This document shows positions 24,178-34,685 of a DNA stretch of 64,000 bases, one piece after another (within the stretch, counting starts at the first letter, position 1; every line of letters starts with the position of its first letter). The stretch comes from Armatimonadia bacterium (GTDB lineage Bacteria; Armatimonadota; Zipacnadia; Zipacnadales; JABUFB01). Made by a program: the position numbers and the translations under genes. Location: positions 62,001 to 126,000 of the forward strand of contig JBDKVB010000050.1 in assembly GCA_039679385.1 (NCBI GenBank). Direction: 5' to 3'. The notes under the pieces were generated by a model. The model was not told the DNA's origin, made no database searches, and saw only the letters and a list, made by a program, of their open reading frames with translations.

Positions 24178-24669
24178 TTACTGATCGCCCGGCTCCTTGT
24201 GCTCCTCGGAAACCCCCAGGCGCTTCTCCATCCTCAGCCGTACTGCCGCGTAGCCCGTCCGCTCATATAGCTGCACGGCGTGCTTATTGCAGCAGCTTGC
24301 GTCCAGAGCGATTCGCAGCACCCCGCGCGATGTGCACCAGTTCTCCGCGAAAACCAAGAGCTCTCGCCCGTGCCCCTGACCGCGCAGAGAAGGGGCTACG
24401 TAGATATTCCGAATATACCCAATGCACGGGTCCACCATCGTGCCAATCAAGGATACCCACAGAAAGCCGCACGCTCTGCCCTCCTCCTCGAGTACGTAGA
24501 GCCCCTCCGTCGGGTTGTTCATCGCGCGGCGCAGTTCGTTGGAGTAGTCGCGCAGGAACTGGGCGGTTGCGATGAACCCGGGGAAGTTGGTCTCGTAGAT
24601 CTCGCGCTGGAACTCCAGCACGTCCTCGGAGTGTCGGCGCCAATTCAGCGGCCTGATCTGCAGTGGCAC
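24178..24669 (-). CDS. GNAT-family N-acetyltransferase
   Basis: 163 residues from a GTG at 24669 with GGGAGGAA upstream. Strand beta-4 and the acetyl-CoA pyrophosphate loop are clear: IRNIYVAPSLRGQGHGRELL (Q/R-x-x-G-x-G/A). The C-terminal ALDASCCNKHAVQLYERTGYAAV is the usual beta-5 to alpha-4 region with the conserved Tyr. The substrate cannot be predicted. It lies 31 bases before the TPR-TM gene on the same strand and is divergent from the GH31-like gene. Confidence 0.88.
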   Translation of the reverse strand: MPLQIRPLNWRRHSEDVLEFQREIYETNFPGFIATAQFLRDYSNELRRAMNNPTEGLYVLEEEGRACGFLWVSLIGTMVDPCIGYIRNIYVAPSLRGQGHGRELLVFAENWCTSRGVLRIALDASCCNKHAVQLYERTGYAAVRLRMEKRLGVSEEHKEPGDQ

Positions 24670-24807
24670 AGGTCGGTTCCTCCCGAAGGTGAGTGAGCGT
24701 CTCGGGCCCACGCTCGTGTCGCGGTCGCAACGAGGCCCTATTCGCTATCCACAGGTTGTTCCCCTGTGGCAGGTTCGCCCCGAGTGTGCGGAGAAGGATT
24801 GCGCGCT

Positions 24808-27360
24808 ATGACCACACTGAGCATCTGCAACCAGCGCCGGGTAACTCAACCTCGTCGGCAGAACCTCGCCCGCCGGACCTCGACATGGTGGGCTCTTCCG
24901 CTGCTAAGCCTCGCCCTTGGTTCCCTCATCCTGACAGCCTGCTGTGCGGAGGGCGCCTGGGAGACCTGGACCGCCTCAACCCAGCGGGACGACTGCCACT
25001 GGGTCTGGACATCGCCTGCGGGTGAGATGCAGGTTAGCCTCGTGCAGTCTGCCGAGGGCGTCTATGTGCTCACCCTTGGCCCGGAGGGACGAAGGACCGG
25101 CACTGCGACGAAGGCCACCGTCAAGACGGGCGTAGTCGAGCTGCCCGGCCTACCGCCCTTGACCTTCAGCTACCAGGGCCAGTCCCTGCGCTGCACTGTG
25201 CCGGTCGCTGCCGGTGAGTGGTTCCGGGGTCTCGGCGACGATCCCTCAGGCCTCAACCAGCGCGGCAAGACAGTCCTGTGGACTGCCGAGGGCGTGGAGC
25301 GTCGCCCCGGTGGTTCGGCCGCCTTCCCGGCACCGGTGCTGTTCAGCTCGGCGGGATACGGCCTCGCAGTCGAGGTGACCGCCCAGGGCAGTCTGGGAGT
25401 CACCGGCGAGCCAGCGCAGGTCGTGGCAAGGTCGGAAGCTGGGCGATTGGCGCTGACCCTCGTGACCGGAGCAACCGTCGCCGAGCAGATGCAGCACTAC
25501 CACACCAGTCGAGGCCCGGTGACCTGTCCACCCGAGTGGGTCTTCGGAGTCTGGTTCGCACCGAACGGCCAGCACACTCAGTCCGTGGTGGAGCAGAGTC
25601 TGCGACGCTGGAAGGCTCTCGGGTGGCCTGCTCCCGTGGTTCCTGTGCGGGGCTGGGAAGGGGTCGGCGACGCCGTCACTGCAGCGGGATTCCCCGACCT
25701 GCGATCAATGGTTCAGGGCTTGCATGAGGAGGGTGCACGGGTGCTGTTGGCGGATCGGCGTGCCTTCCTGCCTCTCCAGACGGCACCGGAGGGCTCTGCA
25801 GCCCTCTTCGCTGTCAGGGAGGCCGACGGTACCCGCCGGTCGGCAACCCGCGAAGAGTGTGACCGACAGCTCCCGCGCCTGTATGAGCCCCTCGCAGAGG
25901 CCGGAGTGGACGGGCTCCTTGGGGTGTGTGCCCTGGAGCCCGGACTGGGGCCGGCGCTCAACGGTCAGGCACAGGCCTACGCTGCTTTCCCCTGGGCACG
26001 CTTCCGCGCTTCGGCGGGCTCAGACACCGTCCTCGGGCTAACCGGGAAGGGAGGCTCGCCGACACCGGGAAGCGTGGTGATCGCCGATGCTCCGCAGGCC
26101 GGCTGGTCGGGACTACGGGCCAACCTGCGGACGATCCTCTCGCTGGGTCACAGTGGCAGCGCCTACTGCGGGTGCGCGATCCCGGCGGCCGAGGAGACCG
26201 GGAAGCGGCCATCGACGGAGCTCTACCTTCGTGCCGTCGAGGCGGAGGCGCTGAGCCCCCTGATGGTCATGCAAGGTGCCGGCGGGCAGGAGCCCTGGGA
26301 CTGGGATAGCGAGACCGAGACGACCGCGCAGTCCTGGAGCTGGATGCGCGAGAGCTTCTCCCCGCACCTGTATTCGGTCGCGCTGGAGTCTGCGCTGACC
26401 GGTGCTCCCGTGGCACGCTCTCTGGCCTGGGTCTCTCCTGCCGATGGGGAGGCCATGGCCGTTGATGACGAGTTCGTTCTGGGCGACAGTCTGCTGGTGG
26501 CTCCGGTCTGTACGCCAAAGGGCCAACGCAGCATCTACCTTCCCGCGGGCGGCTGGATGGACTTGATCGACGGAAGCGAGTACCACGGTCCGACCCACGC
26601 CGAAGCTCAGGCTCCCCTTACCCATCTGCCGCTCTACCTGCGCGAGGGTGCCATCGTCCCAATGAAGTTGAGCCCTGACCTGCTCCTGGGTGCCGATATG
26701 AGCGAGAGCCACCGGAAGGCCCTGGAGATCCTGCCACCCTTCGGTCATGGTCAGAGTTCCTACCTGTGGCGCTGGGGCACCGGTGAGGCCCTCCTGAACT
26801 GCCGTCGTCGGGCCGAGGAGATCGTCTTCCGCGCTCACGGTCGTCAGTTGCCCGTGCGCACGCTGCTCCGGTTCGAGGTCGGCCCGCCTGCAGAAGTGAG
26901 CGTGGACGGCAAGTCGCTCAAGGAGCTCACGGAGGAACAAGTCGCCGAGGGAGAGAAGCGAGGCTACTACTACCGCAAGACTGAGCAGGTCTGCTTCCTG
27001 TACCCCGGCGATGACTGGGAGGAAGTCACGATCCTCGAGGAGCACGGCCAGTTGCGCTTCGTCGACTGGCTGGCTCCGACCCGTGTGGCAGTCGACGCGG
27101 GTCCGGCCAAGGTCGCCGTCAGTTTGCCGGAGCTCGCTCCGGGTGCGGTGCCGTCGCTGTCCTATACCTACCTGGAATCCGGGGGCGCCATCGTAGGCGA
27201 GAAGACAGGACCCTCGCGGTGGAGCTTTGCCATACCCCTGGAGAAGGCCGAGGAGGACGAGGAGCTGGTCTGGCAGGTCAAGGCGAAGGCCAAGACCGAC
27301 GAGATCATCTCCTCACGCGAGCGCCGCACGCTCGTTCTCGCACACCGTGAAACGCGCTGA
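24808..27360 (+). CDS. Secreted GH31-like protein lacking the usual nucleophile Asp
   Basis: 850 residues from ATG 24808 (AGAAGG upstream). A hydrophobic signal (LPLLSLALGSLILTACC) suggests export, perhaps as a lipoprotein. GH31 features: EWFRGLGDD in the N-terminal beta-sandwich, EWVFGVWFAPNGQ at barrel entry, IADAPQAGWSGLRANLRTILSLGHSG matching the acid/base region (Asp about 427), and the strong VLGDSLLVAPV and GGWMDLIDG...LPLYLREGAIVP tail. Where GH31 enzymes have WxDMNEP with the nucleophile Asp, this protein has VCALEP (Cys about 374). It may be a binding protein or use another chemistry. Usual substrates of the family are alpha-glucosides or alpha-xylosides. The next gene is a dehydrogenase on the same strand. 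Confidence 0.8.
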   Translation: MTTLSICNQRRVTQPRRQNLARRTSTWWALPLLSLALGSLILTACCAEGAWETWTASTQRDDCHWVWTSPAGEMQVSLVQSAEGVYVLTLGPEGRRTGTATKATVKTGVVELPGLPPLTFSYQGQSLRCTVPVAAGEWFRGLGDDPSGLNQRGKTVLWTAEGVERRPGGSAAFPAPVLFSSAGYGLAVEVTAQGSLGVTGEPAQVVARSEAGRLALTLVTGATVAEQMQHYHTSRGPVTCPPEWVFGVWFAPNGQHTQSVVEQSLRRWKALGWPAPVVPVRGWEGVGDAVTAAGFPDLRSMVQGLHEEGARVLLADRRAFLPLQTAPEGSAALFAVREADGTRRSATREECDRQLPRLYEPLAEAGVDGLLGVCALEPGLGPALNGQAQAYAAFPWARFRASAGSDTVLGLTGKGGSPTPGSVVIADAPQAGWSGLRANLRTILSLGHSGSAYCGCAIPAAEETGKRPSTELYLRAVEAEALSPLMVMQGAGGQEPWDWDSETETTAQSWSWMRESFSPHLYSVALESALTGAPVARSLAWVSPADGEAMAVDDEFVLGDSLLVAPVCTPKGQRSIYLPAGGWMDLIDGSEYHGPTHAEAQAPLTHLPLYLREGAIVPMKLSPDLLLGADMSESHRKALEILPPFGHGQSSYLWRWGTGEALLNCRRRAEEIVFRAHGRQLPVRTLLRFEVGPPAEVSVDGKSLKELTEEQVAEGEKRGYYYRKTEQVCFLYPGDDWEEVTILEEHGQLRFVDWLAPTRVAVDAGPAKVAVSLPELAPGAVPSLSYTYLESGGAIVGEKTGPSRWSFAIPLEKAEEDEELVWQVKAKAKTDEIISSRERRTLVLAHRETR

Positions 27361-27502
27361 AGAGGAGCGCGTTTGGCCACCAGTCTCAAGATCCTCGCGC
27401 CTGCCTGCATGGGGCTTAGGCTCTTCAGCGGCAGGCGTTACTGTGCCCTCTCCCGAGGGGGCGCTACCAACTGCAGAACCCCGTGAAAGGATGAACTGCC
27501 GC

Positions 27503-28507
27503 ATGGACAAGCTGGGAATTGCCATCATCGGCCTGCGCATGGGCTACTCGCACTTCCAGAACGCGCGGTCACTCAAGAACGCCGACCTTATCGCGGTGTG
27601 CGACCTGGACGAAGAACTCACCGAGCGCACGCAGCGGGAGTACCAGGTCCCCTTCGCAACCACGCGGTTCGAGGAGGTTCTGGAGCGCGACGATGTGAAC
27701 GTGGTCTCCATCACCACGCCGGACTACCTGCACCTTCCCCAGACGCTCGCGGCGCTGGAAGCCGGCAAGCATGTCCTGATCGAGAAGCCCATGGCGCTGA
27801 ACGTGGCCGAGTGCGAAGCGATGGTCAACAAGGCACGTGAGAAGAACCTGAAGCTGATGGTCGCCCACGTCTGCCGCTTCTACGACTTCTTCGCCCAGGT
27901 CAAGCGCTGGTCGGAAGACGGAACGCTGGGCAAGCCCTACTACATTGAGACCAGCTACCTCCACAACTACGAGGTCATTCCCGGCTATGACGGCTGGCGC
28001 TATGACCCGGAGAAGCGTCATCCCTTCGTGGGCGGAGCCTGCCATGCCGTCGATCTGGCCCGCTGGCTCGGCGGCGACATCGAGGAGGTTCACGCCTACG
28101 GGAACCACTTCAACATCCCGCAGCAGAAGTGGGAAGACCACATCATCGCCAATGTGAAGTTCACGAACGGTGCCATCGGGCGGATCATGAACTCCTCAGG
28201 CTGCGCCCATCCATACAACATCGAGTGCGAAGTCTGGGGAACCAAGGGCAGCATCGCCGGCGACAACACGCACGATACCGCCCAACTCGCCCTCCGTCAG
28301 ACCGGCTACAGCAAGTGGCTTAGCTATCCGAAACCGACCATGGCGAAGGCGATTGCCAGCGAGCTGTCGCACTTCGTGGACTGCATCGTCGAAGACAAGA
28401 CGCCGCTGATCGACGGAGTTGACGGCGCGAAGACCATCGCCACCTGCTGGGCCGTCATCGAGTCCGTGGCGACCGGGCAGCCGCAGAAGGTGCGCAACGA
28501 CTTCTAG
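27503..28507 (+). CDS. Gfo/Idh/MocA-family NAD(P)-dependent oxidoreductase
   Basis: 334 residues from ATG 27503 (an in-frame ATG at 27491 is also possible; AAGGA lies between). The N-terminal Rossmann fold begins LGIAIIGLRMGYSHFQNA and continues to VCDLDEELTERT. EKPMALN carries the conserved Lys/Pro of the family, and GGACHAVDLARWLGG holds the catalytic His/Asp pair. Members oxidise or reduce sugar or inositol carbons. RMGYSH replaces the common G-x-G-x-x-G, a small deviation. It is 142 bases after the GH31-like gene and convergent with a second member of the same family, which suggests a sugar oxidation pathway. Confidence 0.93.
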   Translation: MDKLGIAIIGLRMGYSHFQNARSLKNADLIAVCDLDEELTERTQREYQVPFATTRFEEVLERDDVNVVSITTPDYLHLPQTLAALEAGKHVLIEKPMALNVAECEAMVNKAREKNLKLMVAHVCRFYDFFAQVKRWSEDGTLGKPYYIETSYLHNYEVIPGYDGWRYDPEKRHPFVGGACHAVDLARWLGGDIEEVHAYGNHFNIPQQKWEDHIIANVKFTNGAIGRIMNSSGCAHPYNIECEVWGTKGSIAGDNTHDTAQLALRQTGYSKWLSYPKPTMAKAIASELSHFVDCIVEDKTPLIDGVDGAKTIATCWAVIESVATGQPQKVRNDF

Positions 28508-28635: not shown

Positions 28636-29640
28636 CTAGAGCATGCCCTTCTTCAGGTCAATGACCCCGCCGGTTGCGGCTGAGCGGTAGCAGGCCTCAA
28701 GTAGCGCGACGGTGTAGAGGCTGTCGCGGCCCGAGGTAGGTGGCTCGACGCCATCCTCAAGGGCATCGAGGAGGCCGCCCAGACAGCGGAAGGTAGCCTC
28801 GCCCTTGCCGTCGCCGCCGAAGGGGTTGACCCACTGCTTCAGAGGAGTCTGGCGGTTACCGGCCTCGAAGAGCATGACGCCGTGGTGGTCGATCCCCAGC
28901 ATGGCCGTCTCCCCCTCGATCAGCGTCTCGGTCCGCGCCATGGGCGAGGAGAAGCTCTGGACGTAGGAGACGGCGATTCGCTCGGGGAAGCGAAGGTGGA
29001 CAAAGGCTTCCGTCTCGCCCGCGCACTGGATGGCCGGCGAGCTACGCAGGGCGCAGACGACAGCCTCGGCCTCCTTGCCCAGGAACCAGCGGAAGCCGTC
29101 CAGCCAGTGTACGCCCATGATGGCCAGCGCATGACGGTTGCTCCGGGCCATCCAGCCGTTGTCCTGGCGGAAGGTCAGGTCCTGGTGGACGGCCCCGAGG
29201 ACCGCACCGATGGTCCCTTCGGCAACGATGCTCTTGGCTAACTCAAAGCCGTAATGGTACCGGTAGTTATGGTTGACGGCCAGGCCGACCCCGGCGGCTT
29301 GACAGACTTCGACGATCTTGCGTGCCTCAGCGAGACCGTCGGCCAGGGGATTCTCGACGAGGATATGCTTCTCGGACTCCGCAAGCCGCTTGATGATCTC
29401 GAAGCGCAGCGGCGTAGGCGTGCAGACGATGGCGACATCGAAGCTGCACTTGGTCAGCAGGTCATCGACGCTGACGAAGGACTTGCCGATGTGGTACTTC
29501 TCACAGAACTGCTGCAGCCGCTGGGCGTCTGGGTCACAGGCAGCGATGACCCGGACGCGGCTCTCATGCTTCAAGCAGGCGTCCAGGTGTATGAGTGAGG
29601 CGTCCCCACACCCGATTACGACCAAGTCATACGTTCCCAA
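28636..29640 (-). CDS. Gfo/Idh/MocA-family oxidoreductase, second member
   Basis: 334 residues, TTG start at 29640 with GGAGGACC 7 bases upstream. N-terminal YDLVVIGCGDASLIHLDACL (Rossmann fold), ACDPDAQRL, and VENPLADGLAE in place of the usual EKPxA, so the conserved Lys is replaced by Asn. MGVHWLDGFRWFLG matches the catalytic His region. The EKP change may affect nucleotide binding or catalysis and sets it apart from the protein at 27503-28507. It sits in the same strand group as the amidohydrolase gene ending at 29762. Confidence 0.85.
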   Translation of the reverse strand: MGTYDLVVIGCGDASLIHLDACLKHESRVRVIAACDPDAQRLQQFCEKYHIGKSFVSVDDLLTKCSFDVAIVCTPTPLRFEIIKRLAESEKHILVENPLADGLAEARKIVEVCQAAGVGLAVNHNYRYHYGFELAKSIVAEGTIGAVLGAVHQDLTFRQDNGWMARSNRHALAIMGVHWLDGFRWFLGKEAEAVVCALRSSPAIQCAGETEAFVHLRFPERIAVSYVQSFSSPMARTETLIEGETAMLGIDHHGVMLFEAGNRQTPLKQWVNPFGGDGKGEATFRCLGGLLDALEDGVEPPTSGRDSLYTVALLEACYRSAATGGVIDLKKGML

Positions 29641-29761: not shown

Positions 29762-31024
29762 CTAACCCTCGATGCCCAGATAGAGCCGCCGAGGGTTCTC
29801 GTACAGGACCGCCCGCGCCAGGTCGCCCATCATGTCGCGCTGGATGAGGCCTTCGTCGACAATCTCAGCGAGTGAATTGGCCAAGCGGTTGCGCGACAGC
29901 GTTACCTTCCCATAGATCCACTCGACACAGTAAGCGTCGGAGTAGAAGGCGTTCCACTTGTTCATGGGAAGCATCTCGAGACGGTCGCGGAAGAACTCGG
30001 ACAGGGTGCTCGGCGTGAAGCCCTGCCACCAGGCCCCCGAGAGCCACAGGTTCGGATAGTTGCGGGCCAGCACAGCCGCCTCATGGCTCATGACGCGCGT
30101 CGCCATGAACACGTCGAAGTTCGTATTCCGGTGCTCAGAGAAGAAGGGAACCAGGGCCCGGAGCCACTCGGGACGGTACATGCTCACCTGCGGGCCGCCG
30201 TCTTCCATGGTCATGGAACCGAAGAAGAGCTGGATGACGATTCCCAGTTCCCCGCAGGCCCTTGCGGTGCAGTCGGCCGTGAAGGAGGCTAGCTGGTCTC
30301 GCTCGGAAGCGTCCATATGGGCGCCGGCGCAGGCCTTGTGGATGAGGGCGTTGGCACGCCCCTCCTCAATGTGGCTGTAGGTCCAGGTGATCGGAGCCCA
30401 GACGTGCAGGGCCCGCAGTTGGTGCTCAGACGCCAGCGAGTTCACCTCGGCGGTGATGGCCTCGCACACCGCGTGGGCCGAATCTGCCTCCTTGGAGATG
30501 CGTCCAAGGCAGTGACCCGCCCGGGCACTGAGAGCCGGACAGAAGAGCGACTCCCCGTAGTCATACATGAAGTACCGCTGTGGCAACCGGGCCGGAACGT
30601 GGTAGTCTGCCGAGGCCATCTCAACGCGCGCCAGGTCAAGCACACGGTCCTCCCACTGCGGATCCCCGACCCTCTCGGCCACCGCATCCCACAGCCACTC
30701 CCAGTTCGACTCGTCCAGGTAAGGGTGCTGGAACCCGTACAGGTCACGGGCCATGTTCATGAAACACCAGTGGTTGACCGTGTTTCGCGTCCACTTAAGG
30801 AAGGGCACGGCCTGCGCCACCCGGTCTTTCGGCTCGATGTCCTTGTCGAAGAAGACCTCTCGCGGGCAACCGGCGCACCGGATATCGGTAGCCAGCCAGT
30901 GGTAGGAGAGCAAGGTCCACAGGTCCGCTGCCTGCCATACTCCCCGCGTTCCCTGGTGGCTGTGCACGTCAATCGCCATGGTCTGGTCGACCAGCTCGTG
31001 GGCGTACTGTTTCAGGTCAGTCAT
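29762..31024 (-). CDS. Amidohydrolase-fold protein related to uronate isomerase
   Basis: 420 residues. AIDVHSHQG (about 18-26) gives the metal-binding His-x-His of the amidohydrolase superfamily. The C-terminal NLWLSGAWWQGFTPSTL, MLPMNKWNAFYSDAYCVEWIYGK resembles the end of glucuronate/galacturonate isomerases (UxaC) with the metal-ligand Asp (SDAY). UxaC converts hexuronates to keto acids. This protein is shorter than classic UxaC (about 470) and divergent, so a related hydrolase or isomerase is possible. The ATG at 31024 has GGTGAG upstream. Its neighbours are sugar dehydrogenases and an FAD oxidoreductase on the same strand. Confidence 0.75.
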   Translation of the reverse strand: MTDLKQYAHELVDQTMAIDVHSHQGTRGVWQAADLWTLLSYHWLATDIRCAGCPREVFFDKDIEPKDRVAQAVPFLKWTRNTVNHWCFMNMARDLYGFQHPYLDESNWEWLWDAVAERVGDPQWEDRVLDLARVEMASADYHVPARLPQRYFMYDYGESLFCPALSARAGHCLGRISKEADSAHAVCEAITAEVNSLASEHQLRALHVWAPITWTYSHIEEGRANALIHKACAGAHMDASERDQLASFTADCTARACGELGIVIQLFFGSMTMEDGGPQVSMYRPEWLRALVPFFSEHRNTNFDVFMATRVMSHEAAVLARNYPNLWLSGAWWQGFTPSTLSEFFRDRLEMLPMNKWNAFYSDAYCVEWIYGKVTLSRNRLANSLAEIVDEGLIQRDMMGDLARAVLYENPRRLYLGIEG

Positions 31025-32602: not shown

Positions 32603-32786
32603 AGATCACCTGGGCAAAGGGCATTGTGGGCCAATTCCCTCTTGTCGCCCGCGCACCTTCTTTCGGCAGTTCGGAGGAGGCTGAGAGAGCCCGGGAGAAG
32701 GTAGTCTTGCAGGGCTGGAGGTAGCCTCTTTGGGGGTACGACAGGCCCTGTGCAGCACAGACATCGTGAAGGAGTTGCTCCCTATC

Positions 32787-34685
32787 ATGGGTTCGCTGGC
32801 CGACCTGGCACGACAGTTTGCCGAACCGCCGCTTGACTACTCACCCATCCCCTTCTGGTTCCTGAACGGAGACCTGGAACCCTCGGAGCTGCGCCGCCAA
32901 CTGCGGCTCATGCGGTCCATCGGCATCGGCACGGTGGTGCTTCATGCCCGCGCCGGGAGAGCTGTGGAGTACCTGTCGCAGGAGTGGTTCGACGCCATCC
33001 GGGTGTGCGTCGACCAGTGCTCCGAACTGCAGATGAAGACCTGGCTGTATGACGAGGACAACTGGCCGTCGGGCTATGCAGGTGGTGAAGTGCTCAAGCG
33101 CTACCCGGAGGGGCAGGCCAAGTGTCTGGCAAGGGTTGGCTCCGAGCCCTGCGAGGGTGTTCACGTCGCCACCGTCGGCGGTCAGAGCTTCGTGCGACAA
33201 CTGACTCCGTGGCATCCGGCCTATAGCGAGGGTTGGTATACGGACCTGATGGACCTCAAGGCCACGCAGACCTTCCTGGAGACGACCCACGAGCGCTATG
33301 CCGAGGCCCTCGGCGACCACCTGGGCACGACGGTAACGGCGGTCTTCACCGATGAGCCGGGCTTCTACAACCACTTCCACAACTGCGCGCCGGGGACGGT
33401 CCCCTGGACCGACGACCTGCCCGCGGAGTTTGAGCGGCGTGTAGGCTACAGCCTCCTGGACTACCTGCCGGCGCTGTTCGAGGATTGCGGCGGGAGTGAG
33501 CTTGTCCGCGTCGACTTCTACCGTGTGGTCAGCCAGCTCATCTGCGAGCGGTACTACGGGCCTCTGCGCGAGTGGTGCCGGGCACACGGCCTGAAGTCAG
33601 TGGGCCATGTGAACAACGAGGAGTACCTGGTCGACCACGTGCGGTACAACGCCGACTTCTTCAGCGCCATGGACGGGCTGGAGGTGCCGGGGATCGACAT
33701 CATCGGTCCTGCAGGCGGATGGCATCGCATGCCCGACAGCTTCCTTCCCAAGCTCGCGGCCTCAGCGGCCCACACTCGCGGCAAGACCCAGGTGATCAGC
33801 GAGACCTACGGGGCCTCGGGCTGGGGCCTGTCCCCGGAGGAGATGCGACGACTGGCCGACTGGCAGAGCGTTCGAGGCGTCACGCGGCTGGTGCCCCATG
33901 CGTTCTACTATTCGGTCGAGGGGTTCCGCTACAACGAGTGCCCGCCCTCACTGTTCTTCCAGGGCCCGCATTGGCCCTACATCCCTGCCCTGATGCGCTA
34001 TCTGACGCGCTGGACGTGGCTGCTGGAGAACACGCAACCGGTGGGCGAGGTCGCCGTGTACTACCCAATTGACTCGGTGCGGGCCGTTACCACCCCTGAG
34101 GTGCCGCCCTCGCTGGGCAACGGTCTGGCAGAGGAGGAGGCAGGCGAGGCCGGCAAGCTGGGGCTGGCCTTCCGCGAGCTGACGGACTCGCTGTTCCGGG
34201 CCAAGGTCGACTTCGAGGTGGTTGACGACACCGCACTGGCGGCTGCCGAGCTCAGGGACGGAGGTCTCGTTCTTGCAGGCCGCCACTTCCGCTGCCTCGT
34301 CTTGCCCCGGGGCGAGCTGAGCGACGCCGTGGAGGGATTCGTCACACAGGCTATACAGGCAGGAGTAACGGTCCTCGAGGGGGCTCCCGAAGCGGTCGTC
34401 GCTGATGCCTCGTGGTGGGCCTGCCTGACCCTGGACCCGCCCTCTACGCAGGTGACGGCGACCCGCAGGGCGACGGAGACCGGCGACCTGTTCCTGATCG
34501 TCAATGAGGGCGAGGACAACTACGAAGGCACGGTACTGCTGCCGGTGAAGGGCGAAGTGACGCAGTGGGATCTGGGTGCCGGCCAAGTGGACCCGTGGCA
34601 AGCCGAGGCGACTGAGGGCGGCACGCTGATCCGGCTGTTCCTGCTCGCCGGAAGTGCCGTGTGCTTCGGTGTGCAGTGGGTCTGA
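32787..34685 (+). CDS. GH106-like glycosidase-related protein
   Basis: 632 residues from ATG 32787 (AAGGAG about 12 bases upstream). The start SPIPFWFLNGDLEPSELRRQLRLMRSIGIGTVVLHAR matches the N-terminal (beta/alpha)8 region of GH106 alpha-L-rhamnosidase-like proteins (W-x-x-N-G then the reverse turn). WLYDEDNWPSGYAGG and VFTDEPGFYNHFHN provide acidic residues typical of the active site, and VISETYGASGWGLSPEEM of the later barrel. A C-terminal beta-rich domain follows. No signal peptide, suggesting a cytoplasmic enzyme acting on imported oligosaccharide. It is shorter than full GH106 enzymes. Substrate inferred only from family. Confidence 0.75.
   Translation: MGSLADLARQFAEPPLDYSPIPFWFLNGDLEPSELRRQLRLMRSIGIGTVVLHARAGRAVEYLSQEWFDAIRVCVDQCSELQMKTWLYDEDNWPSGYAGGEVLKRYPEGQAKCLARVGSEPCEGVHVATVGGQSFVRQLTPWHPAYSEGWYTDLMDLKATQTFLETTHERYAEALGDHLGTTVTAVFTDEPGFYNHFHNCAPGTVPWTDDLPAEFERRVGYSLLDYLPALFEDCGGSELVRVDFYRVVSQLICERYYGPLREWCRAHGLKSVGHVNNEEYLVDHVRYNADFFSAMDGLEVPGIDIIGPAGGWHRMPDSFLPKLAASAAHTRGKTQVISETYGASGWGLSPEEMRRLADWQSVRGVTRLVPHAFYYSVEGFRYNECPPSLFFQGPHWPYIPALMRYLTRWTWLLENTQPVGEVAVYYPIDSVRAVTTPEVPPSLGNGLAEEEAGEAGKLGLAFRELTDSLFRAKVDFEVVDDTALAAAELRDGGLVLAGRHFRCLVLPRGELSDAVEGFVTQAIQAGVTVLEGAPEAVVADASWWACLTLDPPSTQVTATRRATETGDLFLIVNEGEDNYEGTVLLPVKGEVTQWDLGAGQVDPWQAEATEGGTLIRLFLLAGSAVCFGVQWV

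Follow-up and report, generated by a model that had tools for sequence, protein, structure and literature searches.

A divergent GH31-like protein and putative lipoprotein of an Armatimonadia bacterium that appears to have lost its catalytic nucleophile

The window analyzed here, a stretch of 64,000 nucleotides from an Armatimonadia bacterium, carries a gene for a protein resembling the glycosidases of family GH31 in which, according to a preliminary description, the nucleophile aspartate is replaced by cysteine. This raises the question whether the protein is still an enzyme, employs another chemistry or merely binds glycan. The corresponding open reading frame (ORF) of 850 amino acids (24,808–27,360, + strand) encodes a putative exported lipoprotein and is real, intact and coding. 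It starts with ATG, with the frame being open further upstream to a GTG at 24,766, and scored +0.229 bits per codon in frame 0 versus −0.608 and −0.391 in the remaining forward frames (control genes: n = 12, range 0.08–0.51). Frame 0 was the top scorer of the three forward frames in each 80-codon slice, with a score over the barrel-encoding part (0.126) below that of the remaining codons. A frameshift hiding the nucleophile motif was ruled out, since residues 355–460 are open in frame 0, which scores best throughout, and the other forward frames contain stops and no such motif. Reading of the translation by eye identified a signal sequence (24,808–24,942, +) with a hydrophobic leader followed by a lipobox-like L42-T43-A44-C45, in agreement with the export proposed before; Cys45 may anchor the protein to lipid.

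Profile searches placed the protein in the GH31 family, as had been suggested. The C-terminal domain (residues 532–617; 26,401–26,658, +) matched PF21365 with 77.7 bits (cut-off 24.4) and retains 27 of 34 conserved columns, which bears out the earlier statement that the C-terminal GH31 core is kept. The degenerate TIM-barrel region (residues 238–467; 25,519–26,208, +) retains 16 of 31 conserved columns; PF01055 was matched with 53.6 bits (cut-off 23.5), the best stretch, residues 431–523, covering profile positions 235–327 only. The N-terminal beta-sandwich region (residues 122–237; 25,171–25,518, +) is weakly kept, with 8 of 10 conserved columns retained and a PF13802 score of 15.2 bits, below the cut-off of 27. 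A profile built from 31 homologues of the phylum aligned with residues 122–734 at 268.5 bits, and homology and frame are therefore secure. The region order PF13802-PF01055-PF21365 of the family is preserved, whereas none of the NCBIfam equivalogs for GH31 alpha-xylosidases or alpha-glucosidases was reached (NF007940, 118.6 of 606 bits; NF040948, 108.9 of 800; NF007746, 82.8 of 553). By these matches, the protein is a divergent GH31 homologue with a well conserved C-terminal domain and a poorly conserved barrel. Annotation pipelines that go by the C-terminal half may label the protein an alpha-glucosidase or alpha-xylosidase, a functional assignment that would be mistaken. The same genome contains four more weak, barrel-only PF01055 matches (L005, L006, L007 and L008) at profile positions of about 14–162. 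It also encodes, on contig C114, a GH31 protein (L001) with its catalytic residues retained.

For the comparison of active-site positions, homologues were taken from the BLAST matches, which comprised 32 homologous ORFs besides the two copies of the query itself; one of 280 amino acids (L025) was omitted, leaving 31 rows of more than 600 amino acids each. Strand numbers and role names of the scored positions follow the usual GH31 scheme. All 31 homologues carry Asp in the nucleophile column, which is beyond chance. The corresponding segment of the query, GVDGLLGVCALEP (residues 366–378; 25,903–25,941, +), contains the string VCALEP at residues 373–378 as described previously, and the residue it offers at the nucleophile column depends on the alignment: MAFFT gives a gap, HMMER Gly372, and a gap-free count of GVDG-F-K-T-D onto G366-V-D-G-L-L-G-V373-C374 gives Val373, while Cys374 reaches the column only with one extra inserted residue. 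The nucleophile Asp of an active retaining GH31 enzyme is missing under all four placements, and whichever is used, positions 369–376 hold no acidic residue; the loss of the nucleophile, as read from these alignments, is thus firm. What does not stand is a clean exchange of Asp for Cys. On the level of sequence, no different conserved Asp was found at the nucleophile position either: the nearest acids are Glu377 and Asp368, the latter being part of the common GVDG motif, and many homologues carry that Asp in addition to the nucleophile Asp. The family's nucleophile Asp is located on strand 4 (WIDMNE) and its acid/base Asp on strand 6 (PMC8063059).

Besides the nucleophile, the other pocket positions scored for an active retaining GH31 (strand-2 acid, DIGG acid and R-x-H) are lost in the query. 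The strand-2 acid column (Asp in 21, Glu in 10 of the 31 homologues) is occupied by Arg281 (25,648–25,650, +), and the acid of the DIGG motif (Asp in 25, Glu in 6) by Ala457 (26,176–26,178, +); as judged from the alignment, both columns have lost an acid that every one of the 31 homologues carries. The R-x-H pair is replaced by V487-M488-Q489 (26,266–26,274, +), with R and H themselves being non-universal (21/31 and 22/31, respectively). The claim that the acid/base segment is kept holds under some alignments only. HMMER and our alignment A1 match the acid/base with its sole candidate residue, Asp427 in the strand VVIAD (residues 423–427; 26,074–26,088, +), whereas MAFFT and a further alignment, A6, place Ala there. 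The MAFFT column contains Asp in 23, a gap in 5, Gly in 2 and Ser in 1 of the 31 homologues, and Ala428 in the query. Two other GH31-like proteins of the phylum (L023 and L028, family f3) have Gly at this column and no R-x-H, the alignment being uncertain there.

Structure prediction from the single sequence was useless (mean pLDDT 34.4). A six-row alignment gave a weak model (mean pLDDT 48.0, pTM 0.56); scans of viral contigs had yielded three GH31 loci, used solely as alignment depth for folding, L061 was omitted because of an X in its translation, and L059 and L060 were given later starts than in A6. Compared with crystal structures, the six-row model resembled GH31 proteins, best of all 2xvk (Z 32.6, with an rmsd of 4.5 across 481 residues), but the presence of GH31 proteins in the remaining rows makes this match partly circular. 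In this weak model, residues 369–372 form a strand corresponding to the expected strand 4, and a further strand at model positions 379–382 (residues 423–426) ends just before Asp427.

Regarding its distribution, no orthologue was found beyond its own genome among 46 genomes of the class or 291 of the phylum. Matches were obtained in 16 of the 291 phylum genomes, its own included; the rest were partial matches, with 23–38% identity, to other GH31-like proteins or, at L045, to an overlapping frame of another gene. Of two scans of genome contigs, the first returned nothing and the second three distant GH31 loci, neither yielding a close relative. The pattern in relatives, suggested before as a check, has two sides: all 31 GH31 homologues of the phylum keep the nucleophile Asp, but an orthologue sharing its loss was not found in the 291 genomes. 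Likewise, the genomes examined contain no orthologue that would show the lost residues to be fixed or under selection. The top-scoring homologue (BLASTP E 3e-48, 27.7% identity over 613 positions) was encoded by L010 of the class genome G041 and by L057 (5521–9057) of the Armatimonadota MAG CSMAG_1302, which look identical in protein. Ser occupies its acid/base column (SAGSRRAAW); unlike the query, this homologue keeps the nucleophile Asp (FKTDGGE) and the DIGG Asp, is 1178 amino acids long and has other neighbours, and it is too distant for an orthologue.

The genes flanking the locus were compared with those of three genomes of the same family. The left neighbour, a GNAT acetyltransferase gene (24,178–24,711, −), is conserved in all three, and the right neighbour, encoding a Gfo/Idh/MocA oxidoreductase (27,491–28,507, +), is present at full length in two of them and as C-terminal fragments in the third. 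These two genes adjoin each other in G002 and G003, with about 235 bases between the matches and no GH31-like gene; the GH31-like gene is also absent in G001, where the GNAT gene adjoins one of the C-terminal Gfo/Idh fragments. The gene was thus either gained in the query lineage or lost in all three relatives. Inspection of the insertion for traces of a mobile element or of target-site repeats returned just short weak repeats. Between the two separate C-terminal Gfo/Idh pieces of G001 (contig C109) lies a 360-amino-acid ORF with no Pfam match (L077:3977–5741), pointing to a rearrangement or misassembly.

Divergence of the protein is pronounced. A tree of 32 rows assigned the query an end branch of 2.14 versus a median of 0.26, a length in keeping with relaxed or altered selection; its placement there is weak (47/66) and long-branched, and its letter make-up differs from that of the other rows. 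A special decay of the barrel was considered and rejected, as the query ranked fourth of 32 in the difference between barrel and C-terminal identity (means omitting pairs with more than 40% barrel identity) and was no outlier. Two homologues retain about as few conserved barrel columns (L012, 17 of 33; L011, 18 of 33) and nonetheless possess the nucleophile Asp. Both observations imply that the evidence for lost catalysis lies in specific positions and not in bulk decay. Moreover, an intact frame at such divergence, together with the conserved columns of the C-terminal domain, argues against a recent pseudogene.

Taken as a whole, these observations make it likely that the protein is a lineage-specific, fast-evolving and exported, probably lipid-anchored pseudoenzyme. 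It may serve as a glycan binder or be of no importance to the cell, with the glycan-binding form being somewhat ahead. Loss of the nucleophile would render the two-step retaining reaction of GH31 impossible, while the remaining barrel and beta domains may still hold carbohydrate in the manner of the Bacteroides ovatus protein BACOVA_03431. Alternatively, the protein may be largely dispensable. Of the readings offered in the preliminary description, a probably inactive protein that may bind glycan is the best supported. The possible retention of Asp427 counts against a pseudoenzyme. Combined with a relocated carboxylate, Glu377 or Asp406 as nucleophile and Asp427 as acid/base, it might even leave the protein active. 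Such an arrangement draws on the position of Asp427 just past the predicted strand, on its alignment with the acid/base by HMMER and in A1, and on the closeness of Glu377 to the nucleophile position. We nevertheless consider it improbable, given that Arg281, Ala457 and Val487/Gln489 mark three more pocket positions lost together and that the weak model puts Glu377 several residues beyond the end of the strand.

Still far less credible is a cysteine site replacing the carboxylate chemistry, with Cys374 on strand 4 and Cys454 and Cys456 on strand 7 serving as thiolate nucleophile or metal ligands. All three are found at strand ends lining the GH31 pocket, and a precedent exists in GH127, a family known for Cys nucleophiles with zinc. 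However, Cys374 is neither securely nor uniquely placed at the nucleophile position, and the barrel is not enriched in cysteine (5 in 253 residues versus 0–7 in the 31 homologues). Homologues with the nucleophile Asp also show Cys at the columns of 454 (1/31) and 456 (2/31), and in an exported protein these cysteines may simply form disulfides. With the other pocket positions lost too, the previously proposed use of another chemistry finds no support. A somewhat better case, although an unlikely one, can be made for a gene on its way out, i.e., a GH31 gene that was gained horizontally or by duplication and has no present role. The restriction to one genome among 291 of the phylum, the absence between the same neighbours in relatives, the long branch with its deviating letter make-up and the lower codon score of the barrel would fit this view; the intact 850-codon frame with a coding signature throughout, the conserved C-terminal domain and the retained export signal speak against it.

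A pseudoenzyme as favoured here would be of a known kind, since catalytically dead glycosidases have already been published for GH31 in Diptera and, as a pseudo-GH10, in Bacteroides. The dipteran GH31 proteins lacking catalytic residues (PMC8063059) comprise a lysosomal alpha-glucosidase, in which Gln takes the place of both Asp, and clade IV of NET37. Like the query, they are GH31 homologues judged inactive from the loss of catalytic residues; they are, however, animal proteins whose relatives share the loss, whereas the query is a bacterial singleton. BACOVA_03431 is, as reported in PMC4491172, a surface pseudo-GH10 lipoprotein that has lost its nucleophile and for which xylan binding was measured, and its authors liken it to GH18 chitin lectins. 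It resembles the query, a putative exported lipoprotein, in having lost a glycosidase nucleophile. It differs in belonging to another GH family, in being part of a polysaccharide utilisation locus and in its measured binding. A search of the open-licence literature found no bacterial GH31 pseudoenzyme, which is a weak negative. As an exported bacterial GH31 protein without active site, the query would modestly extend the list of glycosidases that have become binding proteins; it is an ordinary bacterial singleton and opens no long-standing question.

Finally, the protein had been described as clustered with sugar dehydrogenases. Gfo/Idh/MocA genes do adjoin it, with a second one at 28,636–29,640 (−), yet the association is uninformative. 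The right-hand oxidoreductase has 79 matches in the same genome (87–101 in the family relatives), and, together with the GNAT–Gfo/Idh adjacency conserved without the GH31-like gene in two relatives, this leaves the cluster with little functional weight. No terminator-like site was found on the + strand of the region. Further along the window, a protein encoded at 29,762–31,024 scored just under the cut-off as UxaC-like (21.8 versus 25), and another at 32,730–34,685 matched GH106 across part of the model.
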